A DNA stretch of 64,000 bases from Oscillospiraceae bacterium (GTDB lineage: Bacteria > Bacillota > Clostridia > Oscillospirales > Ruminococcaceae). The position numbers were made by a program, and so were the translations under genes. The stretch lies in assembly GCA_021199355.1 (NCBI GenBank), contig JAJQIF010000028.1:1-64000 (forward strand), in the 5' to 3' direction. The notes beneath the pieces were generated by a model, which searched no databases, was not told the origin of the DNA, and was given only the letters and a program-made list of their open reading frames with translations. Positions 1 to 25,081 of this stretch are shown in pieces (positions within the stretch are counted from its first letter, which is position 1; each line of letters starts with the position of its first letter).

Positions 1-274
1 TTTTGATGTCTCTGCCACGCAAAATGGGTCTTATAATTTCAGCAGATTTTGGGTCCTGGGCGATAAGCTCGTCTTTCTTGGCGCCGGAAATGATGAAGGC
101 TTCGTTTTTGCCGGTCTTTATGCCGTAGTTAATGCTGATATTCCAATCTCTTAGCGGCGTGCCGACTGCCTCTATTTTGCGCCTTATGCTTTGCTCGATG
201 GGGTTGAGGATAACCCAGCTTTCTTCATTGTTGAAAGAACAGCTTGCGCTGTTTTGCCTAACAAAAACGCTCCA
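1..274 (-). CDS. Headless target-recognition domain of a type IIG / PglX-like methyltransferase (partial)
   Basis: On the minus strand a frame runs leftwards off the window with strong similarity (from memory of the family) to the TaqI/Eco57I-like C-terminal specificity domain of combined restriction-modification or BREX PglX enzymes. Blocks seen are ESWVILNPIEQSI, IEAVGTPLRDW, YGIKTGKNEAFII and AEIIRPILRGRDIK. The frame is closed at its 5' end by a TAA at 277-275, and there is no ATG or GTG before the conserved region, so the methylase part is absent. The first residues correspond to the stretch just before the specificity domain in full-length enzymes, which is where cassette swaps occur. 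It is divergent from a Mpi-type invertase 24 bp away, so I read it as a silent cassette rather than random decay. The full-length partner is not in the window. Confidence 0.75.
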
Positions 275-294
275 TTAAAATGTAAAGGAGCGTT
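266..294. repeat. 8-bp inverted repeat in front of the invertase gene
   Basis: AACGCTCC (266-273) and GGAGCGTT (287-294) form a perfect inverted repeat with a 13-base loop. The right arm contains the ribosome-binding site (AAAGGAG) of the invertase that starts at 298, and the left arm lies at the broken end of the headless cassette. It could be a translational hairpin, an autoregulatory operator or part of a recombination site; the sequence alone does not decide. Confidence 0.5.
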
Positions 295-297
295 AAG

Positions 298-891
298 ATG
301 AATTACGGTTATATTCGTGTGAGCAGTGATAAGCAGACGGTCGAAAATCAGAGGTTTGAAATTCTGACTTTCTGCGAGAGAAATGAGCTTAAAATTGATG
401 GCTGGATTGAAGAAACGATAAGCGGAACCAAGAATTATGACGTACGGAAGCTCGGAAAATTGCTTGATAAGGTCAAAAAGGACGACCTAATTATCTGCTC
501 TGAGCTGTCGAGACTCGGAAGAAATCTGTTCATGATAATGGAGATTCTGAATCAGTGTATGATGAAAGAATGTCGGGTCTGGACGATAAAAGACGGATAT
601 AGATTGGGCGATGATATTCAAAGCAAGGTTCTGGCATTTGCGTTTGGACTGTCCGCGGAAATCGAAAGGAATCTAATCAGTCAGCGCACAACTGAAGCTC
701 TTAAAAGGAAGAGAGCCGAGGGAGTGGTTCTCGGAAGACCGAAAGGGAGCAAGTCGGGAAAGGTGAAGCTTTCCGGCAAAGAAGATATAATCCGTGACCT
801 CCGGGCACAAGGCGTCACAATAAGCGAAATTGCAAGGATATATAAGGTAAACCGTAATACGGTGAGCAAGTTTATTAGTGAGCGGTTATGA
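298..891 (+). CDS. Mpi-type serine site-specific recombinase (DNA invertase)
   Basis: A 197-residue small serine recombinase. The resolvase/invertase catalytic domain covers about residues 2-140: YIRVSSDKQT carries the nucleophile Ser9, SRLGRN supplies arginines, and the long E-helix motif is AFAFGLSAEIERNLISQRT. After GVVLGRPKGSK comes a C-terminal DNA-binding helix-turn-helix (about 160-197). The wording of these motifs closely follows Mpi, the master DNA invertase of Bacteroides fragilis, and its Firmicute relatives. The start at 298 has a good Shine-Dalgarno (AAAGGAG). It is divergent from the headless specificity cassette, which suggests it inverts DNA to swap target-recognition domains. 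That role is inference from context; family membership is clear. Confidence 0.9.
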   Translation: MNYGYIRVSSDKQTVENQRFEILTFCERNELKIDGWIEETISGTKNYDVRKLGKLLDKVKKDDLIICSELSRLGRNLFMIMEILNQCMMKECRVWTIKDGYRLGDDIQSKVLAFAFGLSAEIERNLISQRTTEALKRKRAEGVVLGRPKGSKSGKVKLSGKEDIIRDLRAQGVTISEIARIYKVNRNTVSKFISERL

Positions 892-1700: not shown

Positions 1701-3425
1701 ATGTTCAGAAACAATTCAGAAAGGGTAATGCAAATGAAAACATTCAGAAAGCTTCTGGCTATGGTCATGGCTGTAGTAATGGTAATGCTCGTCACTGTCA
1801 GCGCAGCTGCAGGTAGCACAGATACATACACCATAACCGTTAACGGCGACAAAACCGGACATACTTATGAGGCTTATCAGATTTTTGCAGGTGAAGTTGA
1901 TAGCACCGGAAAGACATTGTCGGATATAACCTGGGGAGCAGGCGTAAACAGTTCGGCTTTGCTCGACGCTTTGAAAAATGATACTACTTATGGCTCTTTG
2001 TTCACCAGTTGCACCGAAGCTGCGGATGTAGCTAGGGTACTTGCTGGTGACCAGTCAAGTGATGAGCTTGTCAAGCAGTTTGCTCAGTTGGCAAGTGAGC
2101 ATCTGACAACAGTCGCTGGCACGAGCACCGAGACTTCTAATTGTGTCTACGAAATTAAAGTTACCGGTTCAGGTTACTATCTGATTAAGGATAAGGATAA
2201 CACAGTAGGCAACGATGACGCTTATACAGATATCATCCTCGAAGTAGTTGCTGACGTTAATGTTACTGCTAAGGCTGAATATCCTTCTGCTTCCAAGACT
2301 GTTGACGAGATTGACGCCAACATCGGCGACACGGTAACATACACCATTACCGGCTCCATCCCGGACGTCAGTGCGTATACAACATATACCTATATCTTCC
2401 ATGATACTCTTTCTTCGGGCTTGGATTACAACGATGATATGGTTGTTACGCTCTATACCGGCACACTTGGCTCAGTATTAGGTTCATTCACAACTGGTAC
2501 AGATTACTATACATTGGTTGACGGTAAGCTCGCAGAAGTTACTGACACAACTGGAACTCCGGACGCAAATACTTTGTACTACACTGAAACCAGAGATTTA
2601 GATTCTACTACTACGGAGTACACATTAACTAAGGGCACAGATACTGATGGCAACACAACATTAGATGTAACCATCAACGGCGCCAAGAGCTACAGCCAGT
2701 CCTGCCTGGTTATCACCTATACTGCTGATCTGAATGAAAAGGCTGTTAAGGGCGGTTCAGGAAACGACAATAAGGTTTATATCGAGTACACAAACAACCC
2801 GAATACCGGAGAAAACGGAAAGACCAACGAGCAGAAGGTTGTCACCTTCACCTTTGAGCTGGATGTAACCAAGGTTGACGGTACAGATAATGCTAAAGTG
2901 CTCGAGGGTGCACAGTTCATACTTTACAAAGAAGATGGTTCTGATACTTATTATGCAACTGCAACTGTAGATAATGGAGTTTATACTATAACCGGTTGGA
3001 CTGATGAGGATAACACAGGAACTTCTAACCCCGCCACTACTTTTGAATCTACAAGCGCCGGTACCTTCAATATCGTAGGTCTTGACCAGGGTACTTACTA
3101 CCTCAAGGAAGTCAAGGCTCCTGACGGATATAACACTCTGGATAATCCTATCACGATTATAATCACTGCTGAATATGAAGATACTGACGGTGATGGTATT
3201 GAGGATTCTATTAAGACGTTGACCGCAACAGCTGATACTAAGGATTTGACTACGGATAAGGATTCCGGTAAGATCACTTCTCAGGTTGAGAATAATGCTG
3301 GTTCCAAGATGCCTTCTACGGGTGGTATCGGTGTTGGGGTGTTCTTTGTCGGCGGCGTGGCGCTTATTGTGGTTGCGCTGGGGGCTTTGACTGTACTTAA
3401 GCTCAGAGGTAAGAAGACCAATTAA
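1701..3425 (+). CDS. Sortase-anchored backbone pilin (SpaH/EbpB type)
   Basis: A 574-residue surface protein with an N-terminal signal sequence (Lys/Arg at 13-17, hydrophobic 18-36). It has the pilin start YTITVNGDKTGHTYEAYQIF, a pilin-motif region YPSASKTVDE near 194-203 where Lys199 is the probable linking lysine, and a SpaA-type isopeptide domain with the E-box YYLKEVKAPDGYN near 465. The C-terminal sorting signal is MPSTGG at 537, then a membrane helix and RGKK. The motif begins with Met rather than Leu. Start 1701 has AAAGGAG 12 bases upstream; ATG at 1728 or 1734 are alternatives that shorten only the signal peptide. It is first in an operon with its sortase, signal peptidase and tip adhesin, so it is the likely shaft subunit. 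Confidence 0.88.
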   Translation: MFRNNSERVMQMKTFRKLLAMVMAVVMVMLVTVSAAAGSTDTYTITVNGDKTGHTYEAYQIFAGEVDSTGKTLSDITWGAGVNSSALLDALKNDTTYGSLFTSCTEAADVARVLAGDQSSDELVKQFAQLASEHLTTVAGTSTETSNCVYEIKVTGSGYYLIKDKDNTVGNDDAYTDIILEVVADVNVTAKAEYPSASKTVDEIDANIGDTVTYTITGSIPDVSAYTTYTYIFHDTLSSGLDYNDDMVVTLYTGTLGSVLGSFTTGTDYYTLVDGKLAEVTDTTGTPDANTLYYTETRDLDSTTTEYTLTKGTDTDGNTTLDVTINGAKSYSQSCLVITYTADLNEKAVKGGSGNDNKVYIEYTNNPNTGENGKTNEQKVVTFTFELDVTKVDGTDNAKVLEGAQFILYKEDGSDTYYATATVDNGVYTITGWTDEDNTGTSNPATTFESTSAGTFNIVGLDQGTYYLKEVKAPDGYNTLDNPITIIITAEYEDTDGDGIEDSIKTLTATADTKDLTTDKDSGKITSQVENNAGSKMPSTGGIGVGVFFVGGVALIVVALGALTVLKLRGKKTN

Positions 3426-3449
3426 TTCCTTGGCAAACAGGTTGGTGCG

Positions 3450-4298
3450 ATGAAAAAAGAGAAGTCTGTAAAACGCGATAAGCTCTCCACGTGGCTGTTG
3501 GTGGTGGCGCTCTTTGTGGGCTTGATAATACTCTTCTATCCGTCGGTGAGCAACTGGTGGAACGACAGGGTAAGCTCGAAGGCTGTCGCCACCTATGACG
3601 CGGCTGTCGCCAACCTTGATACAAGTGATTATTCAGCATATTTTGAAGCGGCTGAGGATTATAACGAAAGACTTTATGAAGTCGGCTCGGAAAGAGCACT
3701 TCTCAAGCCGGAGCTCGTGGGCGATGACTATTGGGACCTCCTGGACGTCACCGGGACGGGAGTTATGGGCTATATCACCATCGAAAAGATCGGCGTCCAG
3801 CTCCCCATTTATCACGGCACCGACAGCGGAACTCTCCAGACTGCCGCAGGGCATCTTGAGGGGACCAGTCTCCCCGTAGGAGGGGAATCGACCCACTGCG
3901 TCATCTCCGCCCACAGAGGTCTCCCGTCGGCGAAGCTCTTCACAGACCTTGACGACCTCGAGGTGGGGGACATATTCACGCTGACAATTCTGGGCGAGGT
4001 TCTCACGTATGAGGTCGATAAAATAAGCATCGTTCTCCCGACCGAGGAGGAATACCTCTATATCGAGGACGGCGAGGACTATGTGACGCTCATGACCTGC
4101 ACGCCCTATGGAGTGAATACCCACAGGCTTTTGGTGCGGGGGAAGAGAACTGACAACACCGAAAGCAGGATTATCTATGTCACGGCGGATGCATACAAGG
4201 TGGATTCGCTGATTGTGGCGCCGCTGATAGCCCTGCCGATACTTTTAGTGCTTCTGGTCGTACTTCTTGTCATGACCCGCAAGAAAAAGAGCAGATAG
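3450..4298 (+). CDS. Class C (pilin-polymerising) sortase
   Basis: A 282-residue transpeptidase expected to join pilin subunits through their sorting signals on the outer membrane face. Visible are an N-terminal membrane helix (14-31), the catalytic His155 (VISAHRG), Cys217 in TLMTCTPYGVNTH and Arg226 in HRLLVRGK, plus a second C-terminal helix (about 252-275). The TPYGVNTHRLLVRG wording and the two helices are typical of class C. An acidic and aromatic DDYWD segment before the domain (92-96) may be the lid. It lies 24 bp after the pilin gene and is followed 14 bp later by the coiled-coil gene. Confidence 0.93.
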   Translation: MKKEKSVKRDKLSTWLLVVALFVGLIILFYPSVSNWWNDRVSSKAVATYDAAVANLDTSDYSAYFEAAEDYNERLYEVGSERALLKPELVGDDYWDLLDVTGTGVMGYITIEKIGVQLPIYHGTDSGTLQTAAGHLEGTSLPVGGESTHCVISAHRGLPSAKLFTDLDDLEVGDIFTLTILGEVLTYEVDKISIVLPTEEEYLYIEDGEDYVTLMTCTPYGVNTHRLLVRGKRTDNTESRIIYVTADAYKVDSLIVAPLIALPILLVLLVVLLVMTRKKKSR

Positions 4299-4312
4299 GA
4301 AAGGCGTATAAA

Positions 4313-4705
4313 ATGGCGGATAAAGAACTTCGCAAGATGAATCGCACCGAGCTTATCGAGATCATCTATACCCTCAAGCAGAACGACACTCTTTTGCGCA
4401 AGGAAAACGATGAGCTGAAGGATCAGCTTGAAGACAAAACCATCCGCATTGATAACGCAGGATCTATCGCCGAAGCGGCTCTGAGCCTCAATCGAGTGTT
4501 TGAGGACGCCGAGAACGCCTCGAAGCAGTATCTTGAATCCGCAAAGTCCGAGGCGGACAGGATAATCGAGGACGCAAAGGCGCAGGCGGCGGGAATCCTT
4601 TCGGACACAGAGCAGAGAATTATAAACGTACTCAAAAAATATCCGGAGCTTGCCGAATATCTTGACCGTGAACAAAAAGGAGCGGCTGATGAGCGACAGG
4701 AGTGA
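4313..4705 (+). CDS. Small coiled-coil protein of the pilus operon
   Basis: A 130-residue, highly charged protein with no signal peptide or membrane segment, so it is probably cytoplasmic. Residues 5-50 (LRKENDELKDQLEDK) and 60-115 (SAKSEADRIIEDAKAQAAG) look like long coiled coils, reminiscent in composition of DivIVA-like or ATP-synthase b-like helices. I do not recognise a specific family. It sits between the sortase and the signal peptidase and overlaps the latter by 17 bp, which implies translational coupling and a role in pilus export or assembly. That role is inference only. Confidence 0.7.
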   Translation: MADKELRKMNRTELIEIIYTLKQNDTLLRKENDELKDQLEDKTIRIDNAGSIAEAALSLNRVFEDAENASKQYLESAKSEADRIIEDAKAQAAGILSDTEQRIINVLKKYPELAEYLDREQKGAADERQE

Positions 4706-5285
4706 TCTCATCGAAACTGCGTCTATTCCGAGCGATGAGGAAATAGACGCCGAGCGTGAACGACTTAAATACCGCAAGAAATATATGCACGCCCTCACAT
4801 CGACCGTGTATGTGCTCGTCATAGTGGCGGCGGTGTCGGTGCTCTTGGCGACAATTTTCCTCCCGGTTCTGCAGGTTTCGGGCACAAGCATGGAGCCGAC
4901 GCTCGAGGACGGGGACATCATCGTCCTTCTGAGCACAGGAGACTTCCAGACCGGCGATCTTGTAGGGTTCTATTATCAGAATAAGCTCCTCCTCAAGCGT
5001 GTCATAGGACAGCCGGGAGACATAATAAATATTGACGACGACGGAAACGTCTATGTAAACGACGTGCTCATTGATGAGCCGTATGTCACGGAAAAAGCCC
5101 TCGGAGAAACAGATATAACATATCCTTATCAGGTGCCGGAAAACAGATACTTTATCATGGGCGACAACAGAGCCACATCTGTGGATTCGCGTTCGAGCGC
5201 GATCGGATGCATCGAAGCCGAGCAGATAGTTGGCAAGGTAATCATGAGGATATATCCACTGAACAGAATCTCTTTGATAAGCTGA
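4689..5285 (+). CDS. lepB: Signal peptidase I dedicated to the pilus locus
   Basis: A 198-residue type I signal peptidase. It has an N-terminal cytoplasmic segment, one membrane helix (about 38-60), the nucleophile Ser67 in SGTSMEPTL, the general-base Lys103 in LLKRVIGQPGD, and the C-terminal box MGDNRATSVDSR (GDNR...S.DSR). It should remove signal peptides from exported pilins. The start at 4689 is chosen because AAAGGAG lies 7 bases upstream and the family alignment begins there; it overlaps the preceding gene. Pilus operons often carry their own signal peptidase, which agrees with the context. Confidence 0.93.
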   Translation: MSDRSDLIETASIPSDEEIDAERERLKYRKKYMHALTSTVYVLVIVAAVSVLLATIFLPVLQVSGTSMEPTLEDGDIIVLLSTGDFQTGDLVGFYYQNKLLLKRVIGQPGDIINIDDDGNVYVNDVLIDEPYVTEKALGETDITYPYQVPENRYFIMGDNRATSVDSRSSAIGCIEAEQIVGKVIMRIYPLNRISLIS

Positions 5286-5317
5286 CATCATAAGCGAGCA
5301 GGAAAGCGGGTGATGAC

Positions 5318-8300
5318 ATGCAGAATTTATTGATAGGTTGTATAGAAAAAATCAGAAGCGAAAGATCAGCCCGGCATAAGCTTGCGTGCATCATGCTGGT
5401 TCTTTCGCTTATTGTTGTTATATGCGTATATTGGCAGTTAAAGCTCACCGGCGTCGCCCTTGTGAATGAATATTATTGCGGTGTGGAGGAGCATGTCCAC
5501 ACCGATGAATGCTATGAATATGTACTCGCCTGTGGCTTGGAAGAGAGCGAAGCGAATGAAGAATCAGAGACAACAGAAATTACAGAAGCAAACGAAGAAG
5601 CTGATGGAACAGCCGAAAAAGTTGAAGCAGCAGAAGTAACCGGACATGTCCATACGGAAGAGTGCTATGAGTTGCAGCTCGTCTGTGGACTTGAAGAGCA
5701 CACACATTCTGTCGAATGCCTTATAGACCAATCAGCAGACCTTGAAACCGCTGAAATCTGGGAGGCAACACTTCCCTCCCTCACCGGAGTCTGGGATGAC
5801 GACCTTATCTTGGTTGCACGTAGTCAGATCGGTTATTCCGAATCCACCGACAATTACGTCATCTCCGAAGACGGCGTGACACTCAAGGGTTACACACGCT
5901 ACGGCGAATGGGCTGGCAATCCCTATGGCGACTGGGACGCAATGTTCGTGTCCTTCTGCCTGAACTATGCCGGAATATCAAGAGATGTCTTCCCTGAATC
6001 CACCGGCGCATATGCTTGGTCGGTTGAACTCAGGAACATGAAGCTCTATACCGATTCGAATGATGATTACATTCCCGAGCCCGGAAGCCTTGTCTTCTTT
6101 GACAAGGACTCTGACGGCAAGATTGACCATGTCGGAATTGTAAGCTTTTCGGACAGCTCGGTTGTAACCGTCATCGAGGGCAACTATAACGACGCCGTCT
6201 GGGAAAACACCTACGCCAGAGTTGGCAATGCTGCGATAATCGGTTATGGCATTCTGCCAAAGCAGTATGCTGCAGAAGAGATTTATGACGAAGCTTCTGA
6301 GGACGAAGTTACACTGGATGACGAAGAAAATGTCGGAATGACCGACGAATCGACCGACAATTCGGATGAAGAAACCGTCAGCGAAGCTGAAACAATTGCG
6401 CTTGTTATGCAGACACTGACTGTTCAGGCGGATGACGCCGTAATCACAGTGAGTGGTCTTCTGCCTGGGAACGCTGTTGTTACTGCGGTTCCTGTTGACG
6501 TTGAAATCGACGGCAAGGAAGTCCTCTTGGCGTTTGATATTTCCATCATGTATCCGGACGCAAGCGGCGAAATGGTCGTCTTTGAGCCGAATGACGGTGC
6601 AATAACTGTTACCATAGAATCCCCGGAAATCACCGGCGGCAGTGATGTTTACTATGTCCCGGACGAAGGAGAGCCGGAGAAGCTTGACAATGAATCGGAG
6701 GACGGCACCATCGCCTTCGACGCCGAGCACTTCTCTACCTACGCTGTCACCAGCTCTGACACCATAGTCGCCACAGGAACCATCGCCAACGGCGAGGGTG
6801 TAGAAGACGCCATCACCTGGACAATCTACGAAGACGACACCGGAGCGAGAACGCTGGTATTTTCCGGCACGGGATCAATTCCAGACTATGCAAGTGAAAA
6901 TGCCGGTCAGCCTTGGTATAGCTACCGTTCTACCATCGGCACGCTTGTCCTTGAAGAGGGCATCACACGTGTAGGAAAGCAGGCATTCCATGGCAACTAC
7001 TTTACAGACATCCAGTTTGCAAGTACCGTAACTTCTATTGGCTCGTATGCCTTCTCCTATAGCCAGAAGCTTGAGACAGTGACAATACCTGAGACAATCA
7101 CTACAATTGAGTCATATGCGTTTGCTTATTCATATCATATCTATGAGGTAAACCTGTCCGAAGGCTTAGAAACCATCGGAGACTCGGCTTTCGGCGGCAA
7201 CTGCGGCAGCAGTGAGGACTGCAGTGAAACTGTAATCACAATACCCTCAACGGTTACAAGCATCGGTCAGTATCCATTTGCGAATGCGGCGAGGTATGAA
7301 GTAGCTGACGGAAATACAACATTCTCAGTCGACGAAGACGGTGTTCTTTATAGCTACGATGGCTCTATACTTATAGACTACCCGAAACGCCGCGTGGCTG
7401 ATTCCTGGACTGTTCCGGACACGGTCACCACAATCAGGCAAGGTGCGCTCCAGAATGTAAAAAATACAAACAAGATATATGTCAATCACCAGGTGACTAT
7501 ACCCACACAGTGCTTCCGTGACTCGAACTACACCTATGTTTACATTGCGGACGATGTGACTATTCCGACAACCTCAAGCCTCCTGTTCTACAATGACCCG
7601 TATCTGACAGAAGTTTACCTCCCTGAGAATACTAAACTTGTTATCAACAATCAGTACTTCGATTCTGATTCCCAGCTTGCAAGCCTGAAAATTCCGGAGG
7701 GAACAACCACCATAAATAATCTGGCTTTCAGCGGCACGACTAACCTCAGTACGCTATGCTATGATGCTACACATGTGACAACCATAAATTCAGGTTTGTT
7801 CGGCACCAGTACCATGCCCATGTTTGACCTGACTATCGGGACGAATGTCGATTATCTGGTGGCTAATTTCTCTTATATTCTTGCCCATGCGAGCTCGGTG
7901 ACTATTGAGGGCCCGAACGCTTTTTATATTGAAGATGGGGCGTTTGACAATGCGCCTGCTCCCTATACCGGTCTCTCCGGCTGGATTTATGTTGATGAAA
8001 ACGGGGTTATCTATACTCTTGATACCACTACAAACGAAGCGACTCTTTATTATGTCCCCGAGGATGTTACCGAGCTGACTGTTCCTGCAACCATCACTGA
8101 CAAGCTGGATGGGGACACCGATGTCACATTCACCGTCACCACAGTTGCAAAGAATGCCCTCAAGGATGCTTCAAGCCTATCAAGCGTCGTGTTTGGGGAT
8201 GTCTCCAACATCACCACCCTTGAAGCATATGCCCTGGCGAATGCACCTATCGAAAGCATAACCGACCAGGCAACCGGCACAACTGTAGATTCCGAAACTG

Positions 8301-11300
8301 ACGCCGAGGCTCTCTTCACAAATGCAGGCGCAAGCATTGGCTACAATGCCTTCTACAACACGCTTTTAGTCGGTTCGACCCAGGCGGGGAATTTCTCGGA
8401 GAATATGGACGGATCTAAGACTCTTCAGGTCGGCGATATGACAATCAGCGTAATCAGCGGAAACACAACTGAGTGGGTGGAGTCAGCTTCAGATCCCGAC
8501 GCCGGTGGTTATCAGTCGCTGACAGGTGACGCTGTTCAGTTCAACTTCGCAATAAGCAATAATGCAGGTGCAGACAAGACTTACAGAGTGTATATTAAGG
8601 TAACCGATGACGACAGTACGCTTAGTTATACCGCAGGAAATACCTACAATATAAACGGAGTCGAAGTAACAGCAATTGCTACCAGCGACCCATACACCAT
8701 TTGCCTTGAATTTACCATATCGGATGGTGCAACGCAAGACTTTACAATAGATATGGTATATCCGAGCCCCACATCCGACGGCGGCGGGGCTACTGTATGG
8801 GGAACAGTTGTGGAAAATGGTCAGGAGAGTCAGAAAACGGGCAAAATCCAGGCTTGTTGGGTTACTCGGAGAGACAGCTATACTCTGAATAAGACAAACA
8901 ATAATCAGAGTTCTGTGGCTATTTCATCGAGCAATGGAACAGTCCGTCCCTCTGCTGATGTTAAATGGCAGATAACCCTTACTTCCGACGGGGATAATAG
9001 CAGCAATGGCGAAGATTACCTGAAGCTTGTAACCTATACAGACGTCATCACTTTGCCGGATGGCATGGAGTGGGATGAGGATATCTTAGCGGCTATCAAG
9101 GCAGGGACTGTGGCTTGCAGGAGCAATGTTCTCTATGCCGGAACCACAAAGATTGCAACACTGAGCCTTGGAAGCTCAACAAACCTCTCCCTAAGCGGAT
9201 TCAGTATAAGCTATGACGATTCAACTGACCAGGTTGTCATGACCTGGAAAGTCCGCAACACCGCATCCTCAACCACAAATATGTATACAAACACCCTGAG
9301 CCTGAGCATCCATCCGGATGCACTGACAGTGGATATGAATACATATGATACGAGTGCCACAAACGTAATCGAAAACACTGCAACGGCAACGCTCGAATAT
9401 ACCTATTCCAGTGAGCAAACTCAGGAAAAATCCGTTGAGAAAGCGGTGACCGGTGGCGAGGGAACCATAAAGATTTCAAAGACCGGTACAGATGTAACCT
9501 ATTTCGGCGAAGATCTCACCTATACCATCAGCGTCTATAACAACGGCGGTCTTCCGTATAACGGTGCAGATTCCGACACCTACACAGTTACAGACAGCCT
9601 TACATCCGACTTCTTCATCAGTCCTGACAACATGGAGAGGATGTTTGAGGAGGCAGCTGCCGACGGCACAGAGCTGGTTATAACTATAAGCAAAGCTACG
9701 CTCGCAATAGGCGAGGGCTCGTCTGTTACAAGCACAGACGGCACCGCTGATGCCGCATACACAAATACCGGCAACTCGGACCTTAGTAGCGAAACCGACG
9801 ACAACACCCTGGTCATTACCTATGACAGTGCGACAGGGAATTACACAGTCACTGTAAATGGAAACAGCTCCGACACATATATCGGCACCAGCCTTGAAGA
9901 GGTGCTTCAGAGCCTTGGCTATGGCGTAACTGCTTCGGTCACTTATTCCTGTGTATGGACTCTGCCGAATGAGGGCGCAAACGGTGAATTCACCCTGAAT
10001 GGCGGAGACGATTATACCTATAATATCTACTCAACAGTCAAGAGCACATTCCAGATGCTGAATGGCAGCGACTGGGCGGGCGAGTACCTCAAGACAAGTT
10101 CGAAGACCCTGACCAACAAGGCAACACTTGCCTATGGCAAAACAACGACAAGCGCGAATGCGACTAATGACACGGTCATGCGTGAGGCAATTATCGGCAA
10201 GAGCGTGGCACTTGACGGCAAAGACCTGGGCTCCGCTCCTGATGCGTCTGACGGCGATGTCCTCGACTATACACTCACGTTCAACCACTACGGCGACGGA
10301 AGCTATGATGACCTGCCAATGATCGATGATCTCTATGGAAGCCAGTATCTTCTTGTGCCGATTTCCGAGAACAGCGGTAATTCAAGCATTTTTTCGTCCA
10401 GTAACGTTACCAAATACGATGCGGACGACGACGGGATAGATGATTACTACATCCTTGGCGAGGGCGAATACACCGACATAGTCGTCTGCAAGGACACCGA
10501 CGGCAACTGGATGACTGCGGCTACAATAACCGTATCAGGCTCCAATTCCGAGGAGACATTCTACATCAACAGCGAATCCTACACCTGGAGCGGCGTTCAC
10601 ACCCAGATCAAGTGGTATTTCGATCACCTTGACGGTGGCAATTACACAATTGAACTCACCTATAAGGCACTGGTCGACACCTCAAATGAGGCTTCCTACA
10701 CGATAGGCAACATGGTCTGGATGAACGACAGAGTAGGCTCCCGTATCTATGCCGGTCTCTGGGGCGGCGGAACCATCATTGGCTTCGACAAGGACATTGT
10801 CGTGGATGCTTATTCTGATGGCGACGATAACGGCGACGGAATAGATGACGACCAGCATACCACCGTCAGTGCGGGCGAGACTGTAACATACCGCCTGACT
10901 CTTGAAAGCTCAGGCGACTCAGGCGCATTTATCCTGACCGGCGACAACATAGCCGACCAACTTCCTGCAACCTACGGCGTCTTCAACTGGAGCAAGGATA
11001 ATGTGGATATTGTAAACGTAGTAGTGGAAGGCTCTGGCGTTGTTACAAACGCTCAAAGCCTGATGGATGATAACAACTGGTCTATAGCAGACAGCTACAA
11101 CGGAATCAGCGGAACGGGAACCTGGTTTATAGTCTGGGATGACGATGTCAGTGTGTCGTTCTCGCAGAACACAAAGGTTTATGTATATGTTCAGCTCACA
11201 TATCCCGACAACACCGAAACGGTGGTGAACGGAAACGGCGAGACGGTCGGAATGTGGAACGAATATGCCGACCAGGCGCAGGGAGCTTCAATCTCGAACA

Positions 11301-14300
11301 CTTTCTTGGTCTACCGCAACCCCTCCAACGTAACCCATGTACTTGCAAGAGAGGGCGAAGTAACCCTCCAGAAAGGTGTATATGCACTTGCTCGAAGCGT
11401 AAGTAGCACGGGGATAGGCACTTCTTCCGGCACAACCTATTATTCTACCGGCACAAGCAGGCAGTTCTATAACAATCAGGATGCAAGCTACCGCTATGTG
11501 TTCTACTATGTGAGCATCTATAATGACGCCTCAACAAGACTCTATCTCAATGACCTCTATGATGACCTGCCTGAGGGATTTGTCTACGCTTCCCTGATTC
11601 CAAGTAGCTACAACATTGCCAACCTGACTGCTTCCAATGGAGCTTATCTAGCATGTACTCACAATGTTACAACAAAGAGCAGCAGTGACAGCTGGACCAG
11701 CTGGCTTATTCAGACTGATTCTGACATCACATATATGAGCGCATATGTCAATGCAACCGAGACCAGCGATGGAAATGTCACTTTCAGCTTCAGCTCCGGT
11801 TCCGGCACCTATGCCCTCAAGTATGACGACGAAATGGGGCAGTATTATCTTGACAAGGGCGAAGCGATAGTATTCGGTTATATCTGCAAGATAGGCGTGA
11901 CAGCCGACACTGAGAATCTGGCTACAAACACAATCGCGATGTCCTACACCGACTACACCGGAGCAGGCGTCACCGAATCTGACAAGACCTTTGAAGCCCG
12001 CAACTTCGAGCCCTATGGCAGCAGCGACAATGACGGAACAGTCAGTATCGAATCAAGCGATAAGGTCAAAAATGAATACGGCTTCGAGGATGCAACCGAG
12101 AACCAGAGATGGCTTGTCTCGTCAGTATCTTTGGAGAGAGGCGGAATCAGCCCGGGTGTTGAAAAGGACATCGTCAGCCATCAGGTGAGCACTTCAGCAA
12201 GCGCGGAACCCTACGAAGACTCTGTCGGTCCTACTGAGCTTGTAAACTGGAAAGTGACCCTGACCAACGCCGGCGACATGAGTATAATTGACTATGTCAT
12301 AACCGACACCATGCCGACCCCATATGTTTTCACAGGTCCTGTGTCATTTGTGACCTACGATGTAAACGGAAATACGCAGACCTCTGGAACGCTCTTCACA
12401 ATCAACACTTCTCCGGATAACCTCTCAAATCTCACTGAGCTCAATTCGACCACTCTTCCCTCGCTGTCTGTCACATACGGCAGCACAACCATTGATGTAA
12501 AGACAGATGGAACAGAGTATGCTCTGACTGTGGCAATAAGTAACCGCAATGTAAAGTTTAATCTGAGCTTCGACTTCGACACAAACGGCAACCTGGTCAT
12601 GAAGCTTGACATGGAGTCTGTTTACCTGTCAATCCCTGAGGGCGGAAAGATGGAGATAAGCTACACTTCATGGAACCCGACTACCACCCACGCGAGCACA
12701 ACCTATATAAACCAGGTAACCCTGACCCCGACCCAGCCGTTCACCCGGAGCGATATCCAGACCGGCTCAGCTGTGACAGATGATAATGGCAACCTGACCG
12801 GCGTCAGTGCTCTTTCTCCTGTTACCGTAGCCACCGGATATGCCACGACTGCGGACAAATACGTGACGGAGGGCAGTTCGACTGCCGAGTCCGACGGCTC
12901 CTCAAATAACAGCATCGCACTTGAGAGCCTGGACAGCGAATTTACATACACCTTGTCTGTCAGAAACACGAATGATGTTGCAATAGCTAACGTTGTCTTT
13001 ATTGATAATCTCCCGTTTGCCGGGGACACCCTTACCTATAATGACGTTATGTCAAGAGACAGTGAATTCAGCGTAATCCTTGCAAACACCGATTTTGTTG
13101 TGACGATCACCGATAAGCAGGGAAATGTCGAAACCTTCACAAACGGTACTGACTACACAGTTGAATACAGCAGTACTTTAACCGGCAATTTCTCAGTAGC
13201 AGACCGCAACGGCGAAGCTTCTTCCAACTGGGAGACTCTGACAAGCTCAACAAACCTGTCCGAGGTCAAGTCAATCCGAGTCATCGTCAAAAAAGAAATT
13301 CCCGCAGAGGCAACAGTGTCTGTAAGTTTTAAGGCTAAGGTGAGCGATCCCGACAGCGTCAATCCGGGAATGGTCGCATGGAACAGCTTCGGCTACCGAT
13401 ACCAGGTTCCAACAGCCAGTTATACGGAGATGGAGGCAACAACCCTTGCTGTCGGAGTAAAGGTGCCCTCTGCGCCAGAGCTGACAAAGGAGCTTATCGA
13501 TCTCGAAAGCGAAACCCATATAGCCGGGGAGGACGTCAGGTTCACATTCGTAGTCTACCAAGGCGAGGAGCTCAAGAATAACGGCGAGAGCTACGCCACT
13601 CAGGCTGAGCTGATTGCTGCACTTGAAGATGCTGGTATAGAGTACCGTATCGTTCATTCTGACGTCAGCGAGGGTGGCAACACATCTGATACCCTGATAT
13701 TCTACGGCGATAACGGACTGACCAGTCAGACCTGGTGGAACTGGGTCAATGGGGACAGTTACACAATAGCTGAGTTTACCGAGGACGGCAACTACGTCTT
13801 CAAGGAATGGTATGAGGGCAACACAAAGCTCACCGAGGGCAACTCCTACACGTTCGTCTATAATTCCGCAGTAACCCTCCGCCTGACCTGCAAGAACGCA
13901 TATGAGCCCTGGAATCTGAACCTGACAAAGGTCGAAATGGATGACCCAAGCGTCCTCCTGTCCGGAACGGTATTCGCACTCTATACAGATGACGAAGACC
14001 TCAAGATGACCGACGCTGATTATGACAATCTGCCAGAAAAGCCTGACAGAACTCTGACAGTCGGAACCGAGACATGGTATCTCTATGGCGTCGGGACTAC
14101 CGACGCTGACGGAACCCTCACCTGGTCAGACCTGACTGAGGACAGCTACTATCTCGTCGAGATAAAGGCACCTGACGGCTACAACATCAATTCCACACCT
14201 CAGCTTATTGAGCGCAACCAGAACTCGAACAATCTCTCTGTAACCGTCGAGAACAAGCCGGGCTATACAATGCCCTACTCCGGCGGCATGGGTTCACAAA

Positions 14301-14389
14301 CGGTCGTGGTTATAGGAATCATAGTCTTTGCGGCGTCGGTGGCTCTTCTGATATTGAAGTGGCAAAAGAAAACACAGACTCCGGCATAG
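5318..14389 (+). CDS. Giant (3023 aa) sortase-anchored adhesin, probable pilus tip protein
   Basis: Domains in order: membrane or signal helix (21-47); three His/Cys-rich units (EEHVHTDECYE at 57, TGHVHTEECYE at 108, EEHTHSVEC at 127); a CHAP/NlpC-like fold (about 165-312) with HVGIV (His271) and EGNY, but Asp207 where the catalytic Cys is expected (GDWDAMFVSFC); an acidic linker (315-365); a beta domain ending FSTYAVTS; BspA-type leucine-rich repeats (about 490-900, units like SIGSYAFSYSQKLETVTIP); many DUF11-like or isopeptide fimbrial modules (about 1170-2750); a SpaA-like domain with YYLVEIKAPDGYN near 2950; and the sorting motif MPYSGG at 2985 with helix and basic tail. It ends the pilus operon. 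Size and modules suit a tip adhesin that binds host or microbial surfaces. Confidence 0.85.
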   Translation: MQNLLIGCIEKIRSERSARHKLACIMLVLSLIVVICVYWQLKLTGVALVNEYYCGVEEHVHTDECYEYVLACGLEESEANEESETTEITEANEEADGTAEKVEAAEVTGHVHTEECYELQLVCGLEEHTHSVECLIDQSADLETAEIWEATLPSLTGVWDDDLILVARSQIGYSESTDNYVISEDGVTLKGYTRYGEWAGNPYGDWDAMFVSFCLNYAGISRDVFPESTGAYAWSVELRNMKLYTDSNDDYIPEPGSLVFFDKDSDGKIDHVGIVSFSDSSVVTVIEGNYNDAVWENTYARVGNAAIIGYGILPKQYAAEEIYDEASEDEVTLDDEENVGMTDESTDNSDEETVSEAETIALVMQTLTVQADDAVITVSGLLPGNAVVTAVPVDVEIDGKEVLLAFDISIMYPDASGEMVVFEPNDGAITVTIESPEITGGSDVYYVPDEGEPEKLDNESEDGTIAFDAEHFSTYAVTSSDTIVATGTIANGEGVEDAITWTIYEDDTGARTLVFSGTGSIPDYASENAGQPWYSYRSTIGTLVLEEGITRVGKQAFHGNYFTDIQFASTVTSIGSYAFSYSQKLETVTIPETITTIESYAFAYSYHIYEVNLSEGLETIGDSAFGGNCGSSEDCSETVITIPSTVTSIGQYPFANAARYEVADGNTTFSVDEDGVLYSYDGSILIDYPKRRVADSWTVPDTVTTIRQGALQNVKNTNKIYVNHQVTIPTQCFRDSNYTYVYIADDVTIPTTSSLLFYNDPYLTEVYLPENTKLVINNQYFDSDSQLASLKIPEGTTTINNLAFSGTTNLSTLCYDATHVTTINSGLFGTSTMPMFDLTIGTNVDYLVANFSYILAHASSVTIEGPNAFYIEDGAFDNAPAPYTGLSGWIYVDENGVIYTLDTTTNEATLYYVPEDVTELTVPATITDKLDGDTDVTFTVTTVAKNALKDASSLSSVVFGDVSNITTLEAYALANAPIESITDQATGTTVDSETDAEALFTNAGASIGYNAFYNTLLVGSTQAGNFSENMDGSKTLQVGDMTISVISGNTTEWVESASDPDAGGYQSLTGDAVQFNFAISNNAGADKTYRVYIKVTDDDSTLSYTAGNTYNINGVEVTAIATSDPYTICLEFTISDGATQDFTIDMVYPSPTSDGGGATVWGTVVENGQESQKTGKIQACWVTRRDSYTLNKTNNNQSSVAISSSNGTVRPSADVKWQITLTSDGDNSSNGEDYLKLVTYTDVITLPDGMEWDEDILAAIKAGTVACRSNVLYAGTTKIATLSLGSSTNLSLSGFSISYDDSTDQVVMTWKVRNTASSTTNMYTNTLSLSIHPDALTVDMNTYDTSATNVIENTATATLEYTYSSEQTQEKSVEKAVTGGEGTIKISKTGTDVTYFGEDLTYTISVYNNGGLPYNGADSDTYTVTDSLTSDFFISPDNMERMFEEAAADGTELVITISKATLAIGEGSSVTSTDGTADAAYTNTGNSDLSSETDDNTLVITYDSATGNYTVTVNGNSSDTYIGTSLEEVLQSLGYGVTASVTYSCVWTLPNEGANGEFTLNGGDDYTYNIYSTVKSTFQMLNGSDWAGEYLKTSSKTLTNKATLAYGKTTTSANATNDTVMREAIIGKSVALDGKDLGSAPDASDGDVLDYTLTFNHYGDGSYDDLPMIDDLYGSQYLLVPISENSGNSSIFSSSNVTKYDADDDGIDDYYILGEGEYTDIVVCKDTDGNWMTAATITVSGSNSEETFYINSESYTWSGVHTQIKWYFDHLDGGNYTIELTYKALVDTSNEASYTIGNMVWMNDRVGSRIYAGLWGGGTIIGFDKDIVVDAYSDGDDNGDGIDDDQHTTVSAGETVTYRLTLESSGDSGAFILTGDNIADQLPATYGVFNWSKDNVDIVNVVVEGSGVVTNAQSLMDDNNWSIADSYNGISGTGTWFIVWDDDVSVSFSQNTKVYVYVQLTYPDNTETVVNGNGETVGMWNEYADQAQGASISNTFLVYRNPSNVTHVLAREGEVTLQKGVYALARSVSSTGIGTSSGTTYYSTGTSRQFYNNQDASYRYVFYYVSIYNDASTRLYLNDLYDDLPEGFVYASLIPSSYNIANLTASNGAYLACTHNVTTKSSSDSWTSWLIQTDSDITYMSAYVNATETSDGNVTFSFSSGSGTYALKYDDEMGQYYLDKGEAIVFGYICKIGVTADTENLATNTIAMSYTDYTGAGVTESDKTFEARNFEPYGSSDNDGTVSIESSDKVKNEYGFEDATENQRWLVSSVSLERGGISPGVEKDIVSHQVSTSASAEPYEDSVGPTELVNWKVTLTNAGDMSIIDYVITDTMPTPYVFTGPVSFVTYDVNGNTQTSGTLFTINTSPDNLSNLTELNSTTLPSLSVTYGSTTIDVKTDGTEYALTVAISNRNVKFNLSFDFDTNGNLVMKLDMESVYLSIPEGGKMEISYTSWNPTTTHASTTYINQVTLTPTQPFTRSDIQTGSAVTDDNGNLTGVSALSPVTVATGYATTADKYVTEGSSTAESDGSSNNSIALESLDSEFTYTLSVRNTNDVAIANVVFIDNLPFAGDTLTYNDVMSRDSEFSVILANTDFVVTITDKQGNVETFTNGTDYTVEYSSTLTGNFSVADRNGEASSNWETLTSSTNLSEVKSIRVIVKKEIPAEATVSVSFKAKVSDPDSVNPGMVAWNSFGYRYQVPTASYTEMEATTLAVGVKVPSAPELTKELIDLESETHIAGEDVRFTFVVYQGEELKNNGESYATQAELIAALEDAGIEYRIVHSDVSEGGNTSDTLIFYGDNGLTSQTWWNWVNGDSYTIAEFTEDGNYVFKEWYEGNTKLTEGNSYTFVYNSAVTLRLTCKNAYEPWNLNLTKVEMDDPSVLLSGTVFALYTDDEDLKMTDADYDNLPEKPDRTLTVGTETWYLYGVGTTDADGTLTWSDLTEDSYYLVEIKAPDGYNINSTPQLIERNQNSNNLSVTVENKPGYTMPYSGGMGSQTVVVIGIIVFAASVALLILKWQKKTQTPA

Positions 14390-22228: not shown

Positions 22229-22257
22229 TTGACAATCCCGCCTTGATATGCTACAAT
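22229..22257 (+). promoter_or_regulatory. Promoter of the small transglutaminase-like paralogue
   Basis: TTGACA (22229-22234), 17 bp, TACAAT (22252-22257): the same boxes and spacer as the promoter at 14777. Confidence 0.75.
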
Positions 22258-22304
22258 CTTAACATACAGCAGGGGGACCGGATGGATTTGTGTGTTTATC
22301 TTGG

Positions 22305-22335
22305 AATCTCTTTCGGTTCGCCGGAAGAGATTTTT
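22305..22335 (+). promoter_or_regulatory. Leader hairpin with U-run (attenuator-like), copy 2
   Basis: The same stem-loop as at 14858 (AATCTCTTTCGG, TTCG, CCGGAAGAGATT, T-run), here 29 bp before the start codon at 22364. Between promoter and hairpin both leaders share only short patches, so the hairpin is the best preserved part. Confidence 0.65.
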
Positions 22336-22363
22336 GTTTTGCGAAAATTCAGGAAGAAAGACT

Positions 22364-23989
22364 ATGAAATCAAGGAAAATCTTATCTTTAATTATTGCGG
22401 TTGTAATGGCGGTTCAGCTCATGCCGGTGTCTCTGTCCGCAAGCTACACCGGTGAGGACGCTCTGAGCGGCGTCAATCTCGAGGCATACCGGAAGCTGAA
22501 GGCGGCGATAGAAAAAATTATCGACGGCACGGTGTCGTCGACCGTCATCACAATAGAGGTCAGTTGCAGTACGACCTCCTTGGGCGTGCCTGAGATTACC
22601 GACGACAGGACGATGGAGGTTGCGGCGAACGCCTTTGCGGAAAAGCTCGATCTGAACCTGGTGCTCAGCTATCTCATCTGTGATTGCCCCTATGAGCTCT
22701 GTTGGCTTGACAAGACCTCTGCGATCTATACGGAGCAGGAATATTCCGGCAGGGGAACGACTCTGATTGCCAGTGTTATGTTAGCCTTGCCGGTAGCGAC
22801 CGATTATCAGTCGGGCGGATCGTCCACCACCGTCGACTCTTCGAAGATTTCCGCGGCGCAGACAGCCGCAAAATATGCACAGTCGGTCGTAAAGAAATAT
22901 GCGAGCTACACCGACGAGGAAAAGCTCGAAGCGTTCAAGGACACAATCTGCTCTTTGGTCTCATACGACAGTGACCATTCGGACGCAGACTATGGCGACA
23001 TCTGGCAGCTCGTCTATGTCTTCGATCAGGACACCTCGACTAATGTCGTCAGTGAGGGCTATTCAAAGGCGTTCAAGTATCTCTGCGACCTTGCGGGCAT
23101 CGACTGCATCACGGTAAGCGGCACGGTGACGGGAGGCACCGGAGATGGAGAGCATATGTGGAATATCGTCTGCCTCGACGGTGTCAACTATCTTGTCGAT
23201 GTCACCAACAGCGACGCCGGCACTGTCGGTCAGAACGGCGGGCTCTTCATGGTCTGTGCAAGTGATGCCGACTCAAGCGATTCCTCCGGCTATACTTTCG
23301 TTACCAAATCAAAAACCGTCACCTATACCTACGACAGCGTGACATTGTCGCTGTACCCCAAGAGCTATCTGACTCTCGGGACCTCCAACAAGACTACCGA
23401 TGAGACAGTCAAGGAGGTGCACACTCATACTCTGAGCAAAACCAAGGCAAAAAGCGCCACATGCACAACGAAGGGCAACATCGACTATTGGTATTGCTCC
23501 GGCTGTGACACCTATTTCAGCGACGAGGACGCCACGACCGAAATTTCGCTCAGCGATACTGTTATAGAAGCGACCGGTCATAGCTATGAAGAGATTGTAA
23601 CAGAGCCTACCTGCACCGAAGGTGGGTACACAACCCATGTATGCTCCAACTGCGGCGACACCTACACCGACAGTGAGACGGAAGCCACCGGTCACAATTA
23701 TGGGGAAACCGTAACAGATCCGACCTGCACCGAAGGCGGATACACCGTTCATACCTGTTCAGTCTGCGGCGACAGCTACACCGACAGCGAGACGGAGGCT
23801 CTTGGGCACACATATTCCGGCAGTGTGCCTGTCTTAGTCGGGGCTGATAACTACAGAACCGCCACGGTTGTCACAGCCTGTCTGACCTGCGGCGAAGAGA
23901 CTTCCGTTCTTGCCTCTCAATATCTGGACGAGCCGCTGAGACTGATTATCCAAGCAGTTTTAAAGATGACGTCGGAGTTCCTGCTATAG
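22364..23989 (+). CDS. Secreted transglutaminase-like paralogue with Cys-to-Ser change (541 aa)
   Basis: The start at 22364 gives the signal peptide MKSRKILSLIIAVVMAVQLM after AGGAAG; upstream ATGs fall in the leader. Residues 27-300 align with the N-terminal part of the 2403-residue protein upstream (TGEDAL..VNLE, CPYEL, STTVDSSK, DIWQLVYVFDQD). The transglutaminase core keeps His264 (EHMWN) and Asp279 (YLVDVTNSD), but the nucleophile position is Ser230 (NVVSEGYSKAF). Three Cys-rich units follow (TCTTKG...CSGC...; TCTEGGYTTHVCSNCGD; TCTEGGYTVHTCSVCGD). There is no lectin domain and no anchor. It is probably a duplicate of the upstream gene that lost thiol catalysis and now binds rather than cuts or crosslinks. 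Confidence 0.82.
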   Translation: MKSRKILSLIIAVVMAVQLMPVSLSASYTGEDALSGVNLEAYRKLKAAIEKIIDGTVSSTVITIEVSCSTTSLGVPEITDDRTMEVAANAFAEKLDLNLVLSYLICDCPYELCWLDKTSAIYTEQEYSGRGTTLIASVMLALPVATDYQSGGSSTTVDSSKISAAQTAAKYAQSVVKKYASYTDEEKLEAFKDTICSLVSYDSDHSDADYGDIWQLVYVFDQDTSTNVVSEGYSKAFKYLCDLAGIDCITVSGTVTGGTGDGEHMWNIVCLDGVNYLVDVTNSDAGTVGQNGGLFMVCASDADSSDSSGYTFVTKSKTVTYTYDSVTLSLYPKSYLTLGTSNKTTDETVKEVHTHTLSKTKAKSATCTTKGNIDYWYCSGCDTYFSDEDATTEISLSDTVIEATGHSYEEIVTEPTCTEGGYTTHVCSNCGDTYTDSETEATGHNYGETVTDPTCTEGGYTVHTCSVCGDSYTDSETEALGHTYSGSVPVLVGADNYRTATVVTACLTCGEETSVLASQYLDEPLRLIIQAVLKMTSEFLL

Positions 23990-24065
23990 GACGTTCTCGC
24001 AGTAGGTGGCAATATTTGTCGCCTTCCATGCAGCTTTCGACAAATTCATGAATGCAAGTCGACAT

Positions 24066-24205
24066 TTGTACATAAAAGATTCATAATTTTCTCGTTCAAA
24101 ACGGTTGCATTTTTTTGTACAATCAGGTACAATATGAATAAACCCGAGTGGTGCCAAGTTGCTCCAAGGATTCGGGTAATAACGTGTTGTACAGCTTTTT
24201 GTACA
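24066..24205 (+). promoter_or_regulatory. Promoter with repeated TTGTACA boxes
   Basis: TTGCAT (24105-24110), 17 bp, TACAAT (24128-24133) is the likely promoter of the SDR gene. TTGTACA occurs at 24066, 24115, 24187 and 24199 and as GTACAAT at 24127, all within 140 bp. Two pairs are spaced 12 bp apart (24115/24127 and 24187/24199), and one pair overlaps the promoter. A hairpin ACCCGA/TCGGGT (24142-24177) lies in the leader. The boxes look like binding sites of an unknown dimeric regulator. Confidence 0.45.
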
Positions 24206-24235
24206 CTAAAATTCAAGAAAGGCATGGTGTATTAA

Positions 24236-25006
24236 ATGGATGCATTCAGAATGGACGGAAAAGTAGCATTGGTTGCAGGCGCTAGCTCAGGAATGGGTGC
24301 CGGCACAGCCAAGATTCTCGCTGAGGCAGGGGCAAAGGTCTTTATCCTTGCGAGACGGGAAAACAAACTGGCAAGTGTTCAGAAGGAAATAACGAGCAAT
24401 GGTGGCGTCTGCGAGTATATGGTTTGTGATACTTTCAGCGAAGAGAATTGCAAGAACGCTGTTGATGCGTGCGTAAAGGCTTTTGGTCGTGTGGACGCAT
24501 TGGTTTACTGTGCAGGCATAGAAGGAAGCTCAACACTGTATTCTCCTGTCGAGGAGCAATTTGAAGCTGACAATCTTCACAACGTTATGAGCGTTAATTT
24601 CGATGGAATCTACTATATGATAAAGTATGTTTATCCTGAGATGGTGAAAGTCGGCGGCGGTTCAATCGTTGATATTTCCTCTGTTGCGGCTATAAGATCA
24701 GGCATGAGCTCCGTAGCATATGCTTCTTCCAAGGGCGCAATGTGGAGCATGGTCAAGACCCTTGCCAGAATGGTTGGTCCCCAGAAGATTCGTGTCAACT
24801 CCATCCTGCCCGGAATGGTCGAGACAGAGATGACACAGGACTATGTCAAGGATCCGGCTTTCCTTGAGCAGTTTATTCCCACTATTGCCCTGCGTGATTC
24901 CGGAAAGGTTGAGGATATCGGAAACACTGTTCTGTTCCTTGTTTCTGACGCTTCCAGATACATTACAGGACAGGACATCGTCGTTGACGGCGGTATGACC
25001 TGCTGA
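24236..25006 (+). CDS. SDR-family NAD(P)-dependent oxidoreductase
   Basis: A 256-residue classical short-chain dehydrogenase/reductase. Seen are the dinucleotide motif GASSGMG (15-21), NAG-equivalent CAGIEGS (92-98), and the catalytic Ser149, Tyr162 and Lys166 (YASSK); the C-terminal DASRYITGQDIVVDGGMTC is typical. The substrate cannot be told: FabG-like, glucose dehydrogenase-like and steroid dehydrogenase-like members all share these features. It stands alone between its own promoter with TTGTACA boxes and a terminator, so it is probably separately regulated. Confidence 0.88.
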   Translation: MDAFRMDGKVALVAGASSGMGAGTAKILAEAGAKVFILARRENKLASVQKEITSNGGVCEYMVCDTFSEENCKNAVDACVKAFGRVDALVYCAGIEGSSTLYSPVEEQFEADNLHNVMSVNFDGIYYMIKYVYPEMVKVGGGSIVDISSVAAIRSGMSSVAYASSKGAMWSMVKTLARMVGPQKIRVNSILPGMVETEMTQDYVKDPAFLEQFIPTIALRDSGKVEDIGNTVLFLVSDASRYITGQDIVVDGGMTC

Positions 25007-25026
25007 ACAACTCCATATAATCACAC

Positions 25027-25066
25027 AAAAGCGACCTCACCCATCCCGGGTGAAGCCGCTTTTTAT
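25027..25066. terminator. Terminator between convergent genes
   Basis: AAAAGCG...TCACCC / GGGTGA...CGCTTTTT (25027-25065) forms a hairpin with A- and T-runs on both sides. It sits between the SDR gene and the convergent GH13 gene and can act on both strands. Confidence 0.8.
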
Positions 25067-25081
25067 TATGCCTGTTTTCGC

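Follow-up and report, generated by a model that had tools for sequence, protein, structure and literature searches.

Combinatorial specificity in restriction-modification is usually described for HsdS of type I systems. Interchangeable C-terminal cassettes are also found in the R64 shufflon, which holds several of them, as does the locus described here, but which differs in its tyrosine recombinase and in its target, a pilus tip gene. For type II systems, Milman, Yelin and Kishony (NAR 2023) are said to have described gene-altering programmed inversions, in which a restriction-modification gene has an inverted partial copy and the DNA between inverted repeats flips, a picture that long reads are said to support.

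Inversion among hsdS genes is well known, as stated in the accessible part of PMC5903667. For single-chain enzymes, the available portions of a paper on Prevotella intermedia 17F (PMC5608340) describe a full type IIG gene, Pin17FIII (3354 bp, 22231-25584), with an SNF2 helicase upstream and with ORF9595 (918 bp, 25608-26525 complement) 23 bp after it. The layout of these three genes is the layout that we find here. The motifs of strain 17F are GGNYAG, CCNYAG and GGYGAB; of these, the cloned full gene yields GGYGAB alone, with no contribution from the second gene (PMC5608340). In the same portions of the text the word 'recombinase' has no occurrence and inversion is not proposed for Pin17FIII. 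The authors name the system of Rikenella microfusus DSM 15922 as a relative of Pin17FIII (PMC5608340, available portions). This strain is represented in our survey (L086), with both an invertase and an inverted repeat.

The contig end and its missing methylase head

The window (the whole stretch of DNA analysed, 64,000 nucleotides) begins at the first base of contig C9 in the 1.86-Mb, 30-contig genome of a gut bacterium. We consider it very probable, from its sequence and that of its relatives, that positions 1-891 form the right-hand end of an island with a phase-variable type IIG restriction-modification system. The following features are found at this end.

1..274, minus strand: first part of the headless specificity cassette; arm of the inverted repeat on the invertase side and start of the target-recognition region (SVFVRQNSASC...RPILRGRDIK); ends at the contig end, base 1
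237..272, minus strand: 36-bp exact repeat, present again as bases 1-36 of contig C12 and there closing a 944-aa methylase head; frame shared
255..272, minus strand: putative outer recombination site of the invertase, GAGCGTTTTTGTTAGGCA; partner at C12:19-36
275..277, minus strand (read 277-275): stop codon TAA directly before the cassette, by frame reading
298..891, plus strand: Mpi-family serine DNA invertase, intact, 197 aa; amino-acid identical in congener L014

The minus-strand frame 274-1 is open over 91 amino acids, and its similarity is to the C-terminal region of type IIG enzymes (E 2.8e-27 with PADLOC REase_MTase_IIG, at positions 856-931 of this 1148-position profile). The methylase part is absent; the match lies only downstream of the type IIG methylase region. 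The sequence-only reading had described this frame as a type IIG specificity part without its methylase, closed by a stop at 277-275 and adjoined by an Mpi-family invertase, and all of these points hold. The invertase scores above the cut-off of its family (NCBIfam NF009949, 326.2 bits, cut-off 272; resolvase domain E 2e-32) and is separated from the cassette by 23 bp between positions 274 and 298. Since a stop precedes the cassette and no ATG, GTG or TTG ORF of at least 60 codons is listed in its frame, we take it as silent in the window arrangement. The sequence-only reading had also called the cassette truncated; the head is indeed absent from the frame, but the cut at base 1 is a contig end rather than biology.

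The motif AAAGGAG at 284..290 on the plus strand is presumably the ribosome-binding site of the invertase. A dyad, AACGCTCC/GGAGCGTT, spans window positions 266-293 and is a candidate operator. A promoter scan was uninformative (4 found vs 2.0 expected). The palindrome AACAGC-TTGC-GCTGTT in the window arm was considered as a crossover site and dropped, as it is not kept in other loci, unlike the GAGCG site. Further along the window, positions 1701-14389 form a run of surface-protein genes, named by eye from their translations: pilin-like and ending in MPSTG (1701-3425), sortase-like (3450-4298), signal-peptidase-like (4650-5285) and, with 3023 aa, adhesin-like (5318-14389).

The missing head lies on another contig of the same genome. 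Window positions 237-272 match C12:1-36 exactly over 36 bp and match nothing else in the own genome. On C12 a minus-strand frame of 944 amino acids runs through the same 36 bases in the same reading frame and is open to the contig end. It has an Eco57I methylase domain (143.4 bits) with the GNPPY motif and is preceded by a PLD/SNF2 helicase; all Pfam matches of this head fall at residues 544-920, none in its N-terminal part. Because the head reaches the contig end through the same bases and in the same frame, the break in the gene is most likely an assembly break at the repeat. A search of the own genome with the inner segment of the complete locus L014 recovered only 27 bases of the known arm and a 17-base chance match, and the inner DNA is absent from the assembly. 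The sequence-only reading had predicted a full-length gene with a match to 200-275, which is now accounted for by the head on C12, with its exact repeat at 237-272, and by the whole locus in L014. Two large serine recombinases lie a few kilobases from the helicase on C12 (L003 8890-12363), and the flanks differ between congeners; because of both, the sequences suggest that the locus is a mobile island.

A complete locus and its relatives

The locus is unbroken in a congener (L014, genome G011), where the invertase is followed by 25 bp, a headless cassette, and then on the opposite strand a 1237-aa methylase and the helicase. The C-terminal target-recognition domain belongs to the same chain as the methylase in L014, whereas the own genome has head and tail on two contigs. 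Inverted repeats in L014 (303 bp, 99% identity between the cassettes) bound two alternative tails, one of them headless; of these the own genome shows one arm and the junction only.

The two arms of L014 are identical to each other at 270/272 positions, whereas the window arm matches either of them at 245/272. The neighbouring regions are better conserved between the two genomes (invertase and spacer 605/619, methylase head 2685/2801). The arms are thus kept alike within a genome but differ more between genomes than their neighbours do, and therefore appear to evolve in concert, as expected if they exchange. A methylase search of 295 genomes of the order at E 1e-80 was positive in the own genome only (1/295), and for this reason the order provides no vertical control set.

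We scanned for related loci with the invertase and analysed the best 80 of at least 552 candidates. By their record titles, which can err for metagenome bins, these best 80 come from Clostridia, Bacteroidales, Coriobacteriales, Kiritimatiellae and Longilinea, among others; we take Longilinea to belong to the Chloroflexota. Among the best 80, a headless tail lies within 400 bp of the invertase in 51 (19 upstream, 32 downstream), the outer site alone is present in 13, and 16 have neither tail nor site. Because a tail or its site adjoins the invertase in 64 of these 80 loci, we judge from the sequences that the pairing of invertase and cassette exceeds chance. Tail and head occur on one contig in 22 of the best 80, and inverted arms of at least 290 bp are likewise found in 22. 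The invertase reads into the cassette in the Bacteroidales examples inspected and away from it in the Clostridia ones.

Among the best 80 loci, 32 contig ends lie no further than 420 bp from the invertase: 26 on the cassette side, one on the other side and five unclassified. We regard the cassette-side ends, from their position, as the same assembly break as in the window, and metagenome contigs can be expected to end often at such switches.

The loci L045, L048 and L051 have neither tail nor site despite 10 kb on both sides. Because such loci occur among the 16, some close relatives may have other targets.

In Prevotella nigrescens (L098 9001-17131) an Mpi relative (67%) precedes two truncated Eco57I genes, and a full N-6 methylase lies opposite to them. 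The inverted repeats there measure 18 bp and 47 bp. Since the 47-bp repeat sits at the NPPY catalytic motif, the swap in this locus may start inside the methylase domain.

Two candidate sites and the proposed switch

Arms of at least 290 bp were aligned in 23 loci, L014 included, and inner repeats were compared in these loci only. Homology begins at or very near an 18-bp site, GAGCGWTTWYGTKMAGCA, which codes for (L/M)S.(F/Y)V in most loci. In loci whose arms share only 64-68% identity (L025, L026, L034, L038), the outermost identity is concentrated in this outer site, over about 12-18 bp whose distance from the invertase hardly varies. A pattern for the site was written after the arm alignment. 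It occurs once near and once far from the invertase in 21 of 81 loci (L014 included), on opposite strands in 21/21. Scored by this pattern, the best 80 of at least 552 loci comprise 20 with a near-far pair, 22 with the near site only, one with the far site only and 37 with neither, cut contigs and variants included. The near and far copies are identical within a locus in 16/21 pairs, compared with 1.4% of between-locus pairings, and 0/10000 shuffles reach this. The two copies differ at 2/18 positions in L034 and L038 and at 3/18 in L101, and therefore the shared part in L101 is the first 12 bases. Synonymous codon bias is found at residues 932-934, 936 and 937 and is absent at 935 and 938-941; these outer counts lean towards the site because the methylases were chosen by its pattern (plus L014, L100 and L101), and the codon test ignores shared ancestry.

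We propose the following switch. The order would be helicase (PLD and SNF2), methylase head, outer site and active tail (TRD1, inner site, TRD2); beyond the active tail would lie a second, inverted tail ending in a second outer site, and then the invertase. Recombination between the two inverted outer sites by the invertase would join the silent tail in frame to the head and silence the other tail, and after the flip the enzyme would recognise, methylate and presumably cut a different sequence. Inside the tails, two further sites of similar sequence and equal codon phase would allow the TRD2 halves to be exchanged on their own. Two cassettes with two exchangeable halves each would give up to four specificities. 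The whole-tail swap at the outer sites is the most likely step, and the second-half swap at the inner sites is probable. We infer that the invertase acts on both sites, that the organism of the window switches, that specificity is altered and that the enzyme cuts. The sequence-only reading had already proposed a switch in which the cassette exchanges with a full-length gene; the head on C12, the inverted repeat of L014 and the TRD1 orientations in Lactococcus described below support it, and the second, internal site goes beyond what it predicted.

The inner site has the DNA consensus GGA(C/G)GATTTTTCTAAGC(A/C), is similar to the outer site, shares its codon phase and lies inside the specificity region. 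It is possible, though we favour it less, that switching takes place at the outer sites only, that the inner stretch is a protein motif (DDFSKQKI) and that half-domain mosaics arise from rare homologous recombination or transfer. The stretch does code for a conserved peptide in most loci. However, synonymous codons are constrained there in methylases not chosen by this site: GAC is used in 12/12 cases vs 4.4 expected, TCT in 12/14 vs 3.1 and AAG in 14/16 vs 7.0, with bias at residues 1103-1108 that fades alongside (weak at 1101 and 1109, none at 1110-1113). The DNA also stays constant while the residue changes between S, Y and D, encoded as TCT, TAT and GAT. In the 23 loci where the motif matches, with no more than four mismatches, exactly twice and on opposite strands, the inner pairs are identical over 23 bases in 12/23 within a locus compared with 17/506 between loci, and the preceding codon agrees in 3/23. 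This comparison leaves out L039, with three matches, and the single-match loci L028, L060, L064, L074, L080, L100 and L101.

An inner inverted repeat coincides with the motif in 20 of the 23 long-arm loci, weakly in L080 (E 0.66) and L032 (E 0.013). In favour of switching at the outer sites only, the repeat of L025 lies elsewhere and L074 and L086 have none. We also checked whether L086 could speak for a loss of homology at the inner site and dropped it, as its arms fall to 50-66% before reaching this site. Similarly, Bacteroides finegoldii L105 and the Lactococcus plasmid L103 keep the sites, the inner stretch included, with no invertase detected (plasmid invertase search at E 1e-40). L103 and L104, both Lactococcus plasmids, encode the same methylase protein without invertase and silent cassette, and these two and L105 look like locked derivatives of the switch. 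In four cyanobacterial homologues without a detected invertase both sites are absent.

Two free-standing second-half cassettes start at the inner site; they lie on the minus strand of L059 (11519-11920) and of L039 (7580-7999). They were found by reading the ORF lists of two loci and are no census; the motif scan caught L039 and missed L059. Such half-cassettes would make little sense without recombination at the inner site, and the specificity region appears to consist of two exchangeable half-domains. Contigs L020 and L029 begin exactly 48 bases before the inner motif, where the assembly may branch. The active methylase frame of L039 is broken at about 7129, shortly before the inner site.

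Two Lactococcus plasmids, pJM1F (L100) and pUCCL629A (L101), encode the same invertase protein and are nearly identical outside the tails (589/600 before the outer site, 600/600 on the invertase side). After the outer site the two active tails are 70-72% alike for 300 bp and then lower. The active tail of L100 matches the silent tail of L101 at 100, 97, 100, 100 and 95% per 100 bp, and the silent tail of L100 matches the active tail of L101 at 89, 79, 93, 85 and 81%. Because these cross matches exceed the match between the active tails, the first 500 bp of the tails (TRD1) are in opposite positions in L100 and L101. Both orientations are thus found between the two plasmids, for the TRD1 part only. 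About 490 bp into the tails, at GGAC|GATTTT within the inner motif, identity breaks off sharply with no homology beyond it, which argues against switching at the outer sites only. The TRD2 halves of the two plasmids are all different, and the pair therefore displays the TRD1 orientation and the inner breakpoint rather than a clean whole flip. The TRD2 halves of five Lactococcus cassettes all differ, as slow exchange would also give.

The repeat region occurs in two recurring types, INYGIKTG and I(Y/N)RG(I/V)LTG. In L100, L101, L039 and L059 they are split one per cassette. Both cassettes of L014 are of the I(Y/N)RG(I/V)LTG type, and the window cassette is of the INYGIKTG type.

A switch driven by the invertase at both sites is our preferred reading. 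We think it unlikely that only homologous recombination between the arms of about 300 bp is at work, with the invertase a bystander or serving other targets as the classical Mpi does in Bacteroides. The arms in L014, L032 and L052 are long and alike enough for this, 16 of the best 80 of at least 552 loci lack tail and site, and none of the 12 annotated genes in the stretch around a Parabacteroides Mpi relative (55%) is a restriction gene. The Mpi of B. fragilis acts at no fewer than thirteen scattered regions, by the accessible part of PMC5903667. However, homologous recombination would not lead one to expect that, in arms 64-68% alike, outer identity is confined mainly to about 12-18 bp at a near-fixed distance from the invertase, nor that codons are constrained at the outer site, in genes selected by that site. 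The recurrence of the pairing in 64 of the best 80 of at least 552 loci, in several phyla by record title, argues against a bystander.

It is very improbable that the window holds a decaying, functionless remnant beside an unrelated recombinase: only 91 codons are present there and the broken active gene of L039 illustrates that such loci can decay, but the truncation is a contig end, neither frame nor site nor invertase is damaged, and the C12 head stays open as far as the junction. The phase-variable BREX (PglX) locus that the sequence-only reading allowed for can be set aside with near certainty, for although the model of the methylase tail has PglX as one of its structural matches, PglZ (PF08665) has no match in the assembled part of the own genome (control positive in 2/14 genomes), BREX PglX models give the L014 methylase 57.9 bits vs a cut-off of 500, and the partner gene is a PLD/SNF2 helicase.

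DISARM was likewise rejected, as the L014 helicase reaches 158.9 bits vs a DrmD cut-off of 610. The tail model, made for L034, has a mean pLDDT of 66.5, with residues 546-554 at the inner site below 50. Its PDB matches include CamA, M.BseCI, PglX, MmeI, TaqI and BpuSI, with rmsd >12 and TM-scores of at most 0.41 in the rows shown, and the model lends weak fold support only.

Relation to known systems

We lean towards a reading in which two pairs of sites within a type IIG coding sequence serve a single Mpi-type invertase, which shuffles the half domains independently, giving up to four specificities from two cassettes, or more with free-standing second-half cassettes, in a mobile island found across several phyla. 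The motifs of P. intermedia 17F would then be three of the four products. As given in the available portions of PMC5608340, they can be factored as GG or CC combined with NYAG or YGAB, which is what two half-domains might yield. The motifs of R. microfusus (CCGACY, CCRGAG and SCCAAB; PMC5608340, same portions) factor less neatly. In the portions of the open-licence literature that were available, the enzyme and motif names occur in one other paper only, where Pin17FIII merely stands in a table, and a search of open-licence papers, as far as their text was accessible, found no description of type IIG enzymes that carry invertase sites in two pairs.

If this reading is correct, single-chain restriction enzymes can be combinatorial, with a dedicated serine invertase and a defined, testable site. 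It would offer an explanation for multi-motif methylomes such as that of P. intermedia 17F and perhaps that of R. microfusus, and it predicts a fourth motif for strain 17F, CCYGAB. Sister cells could mark and cut different DNA, which bears on phage defence and on mixed methylation within one strain.

Inversion of type II systems has reportedly been published already, and the two-site design is the new part: compared with what Milman, Yelin and Kishony reportedly described, the half-domain exchange at two sites and the free-standing second-half cassettes are added here. The closest likeness in type I systems is the shuffling of hsdS, for example in pneumococcal SpnIII, which shares inverted repeats in specificity genes, the exchange of half recognition domains and several methylomes in a clone. 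It differs in that the specificity region here lies within a single-chain type IIG enzyme, with an Mpi-family serine invertase as the recombinase. The master invertase Mpi of Bacteroides fragilis belongs to the same NCBI serine invertase family as the window invertase. However, it flips regions scattered over the genome (PMC5903667, accessible part), whereas the invertase described here adjoins one coding target and its putative site lies inside the coding sequence.
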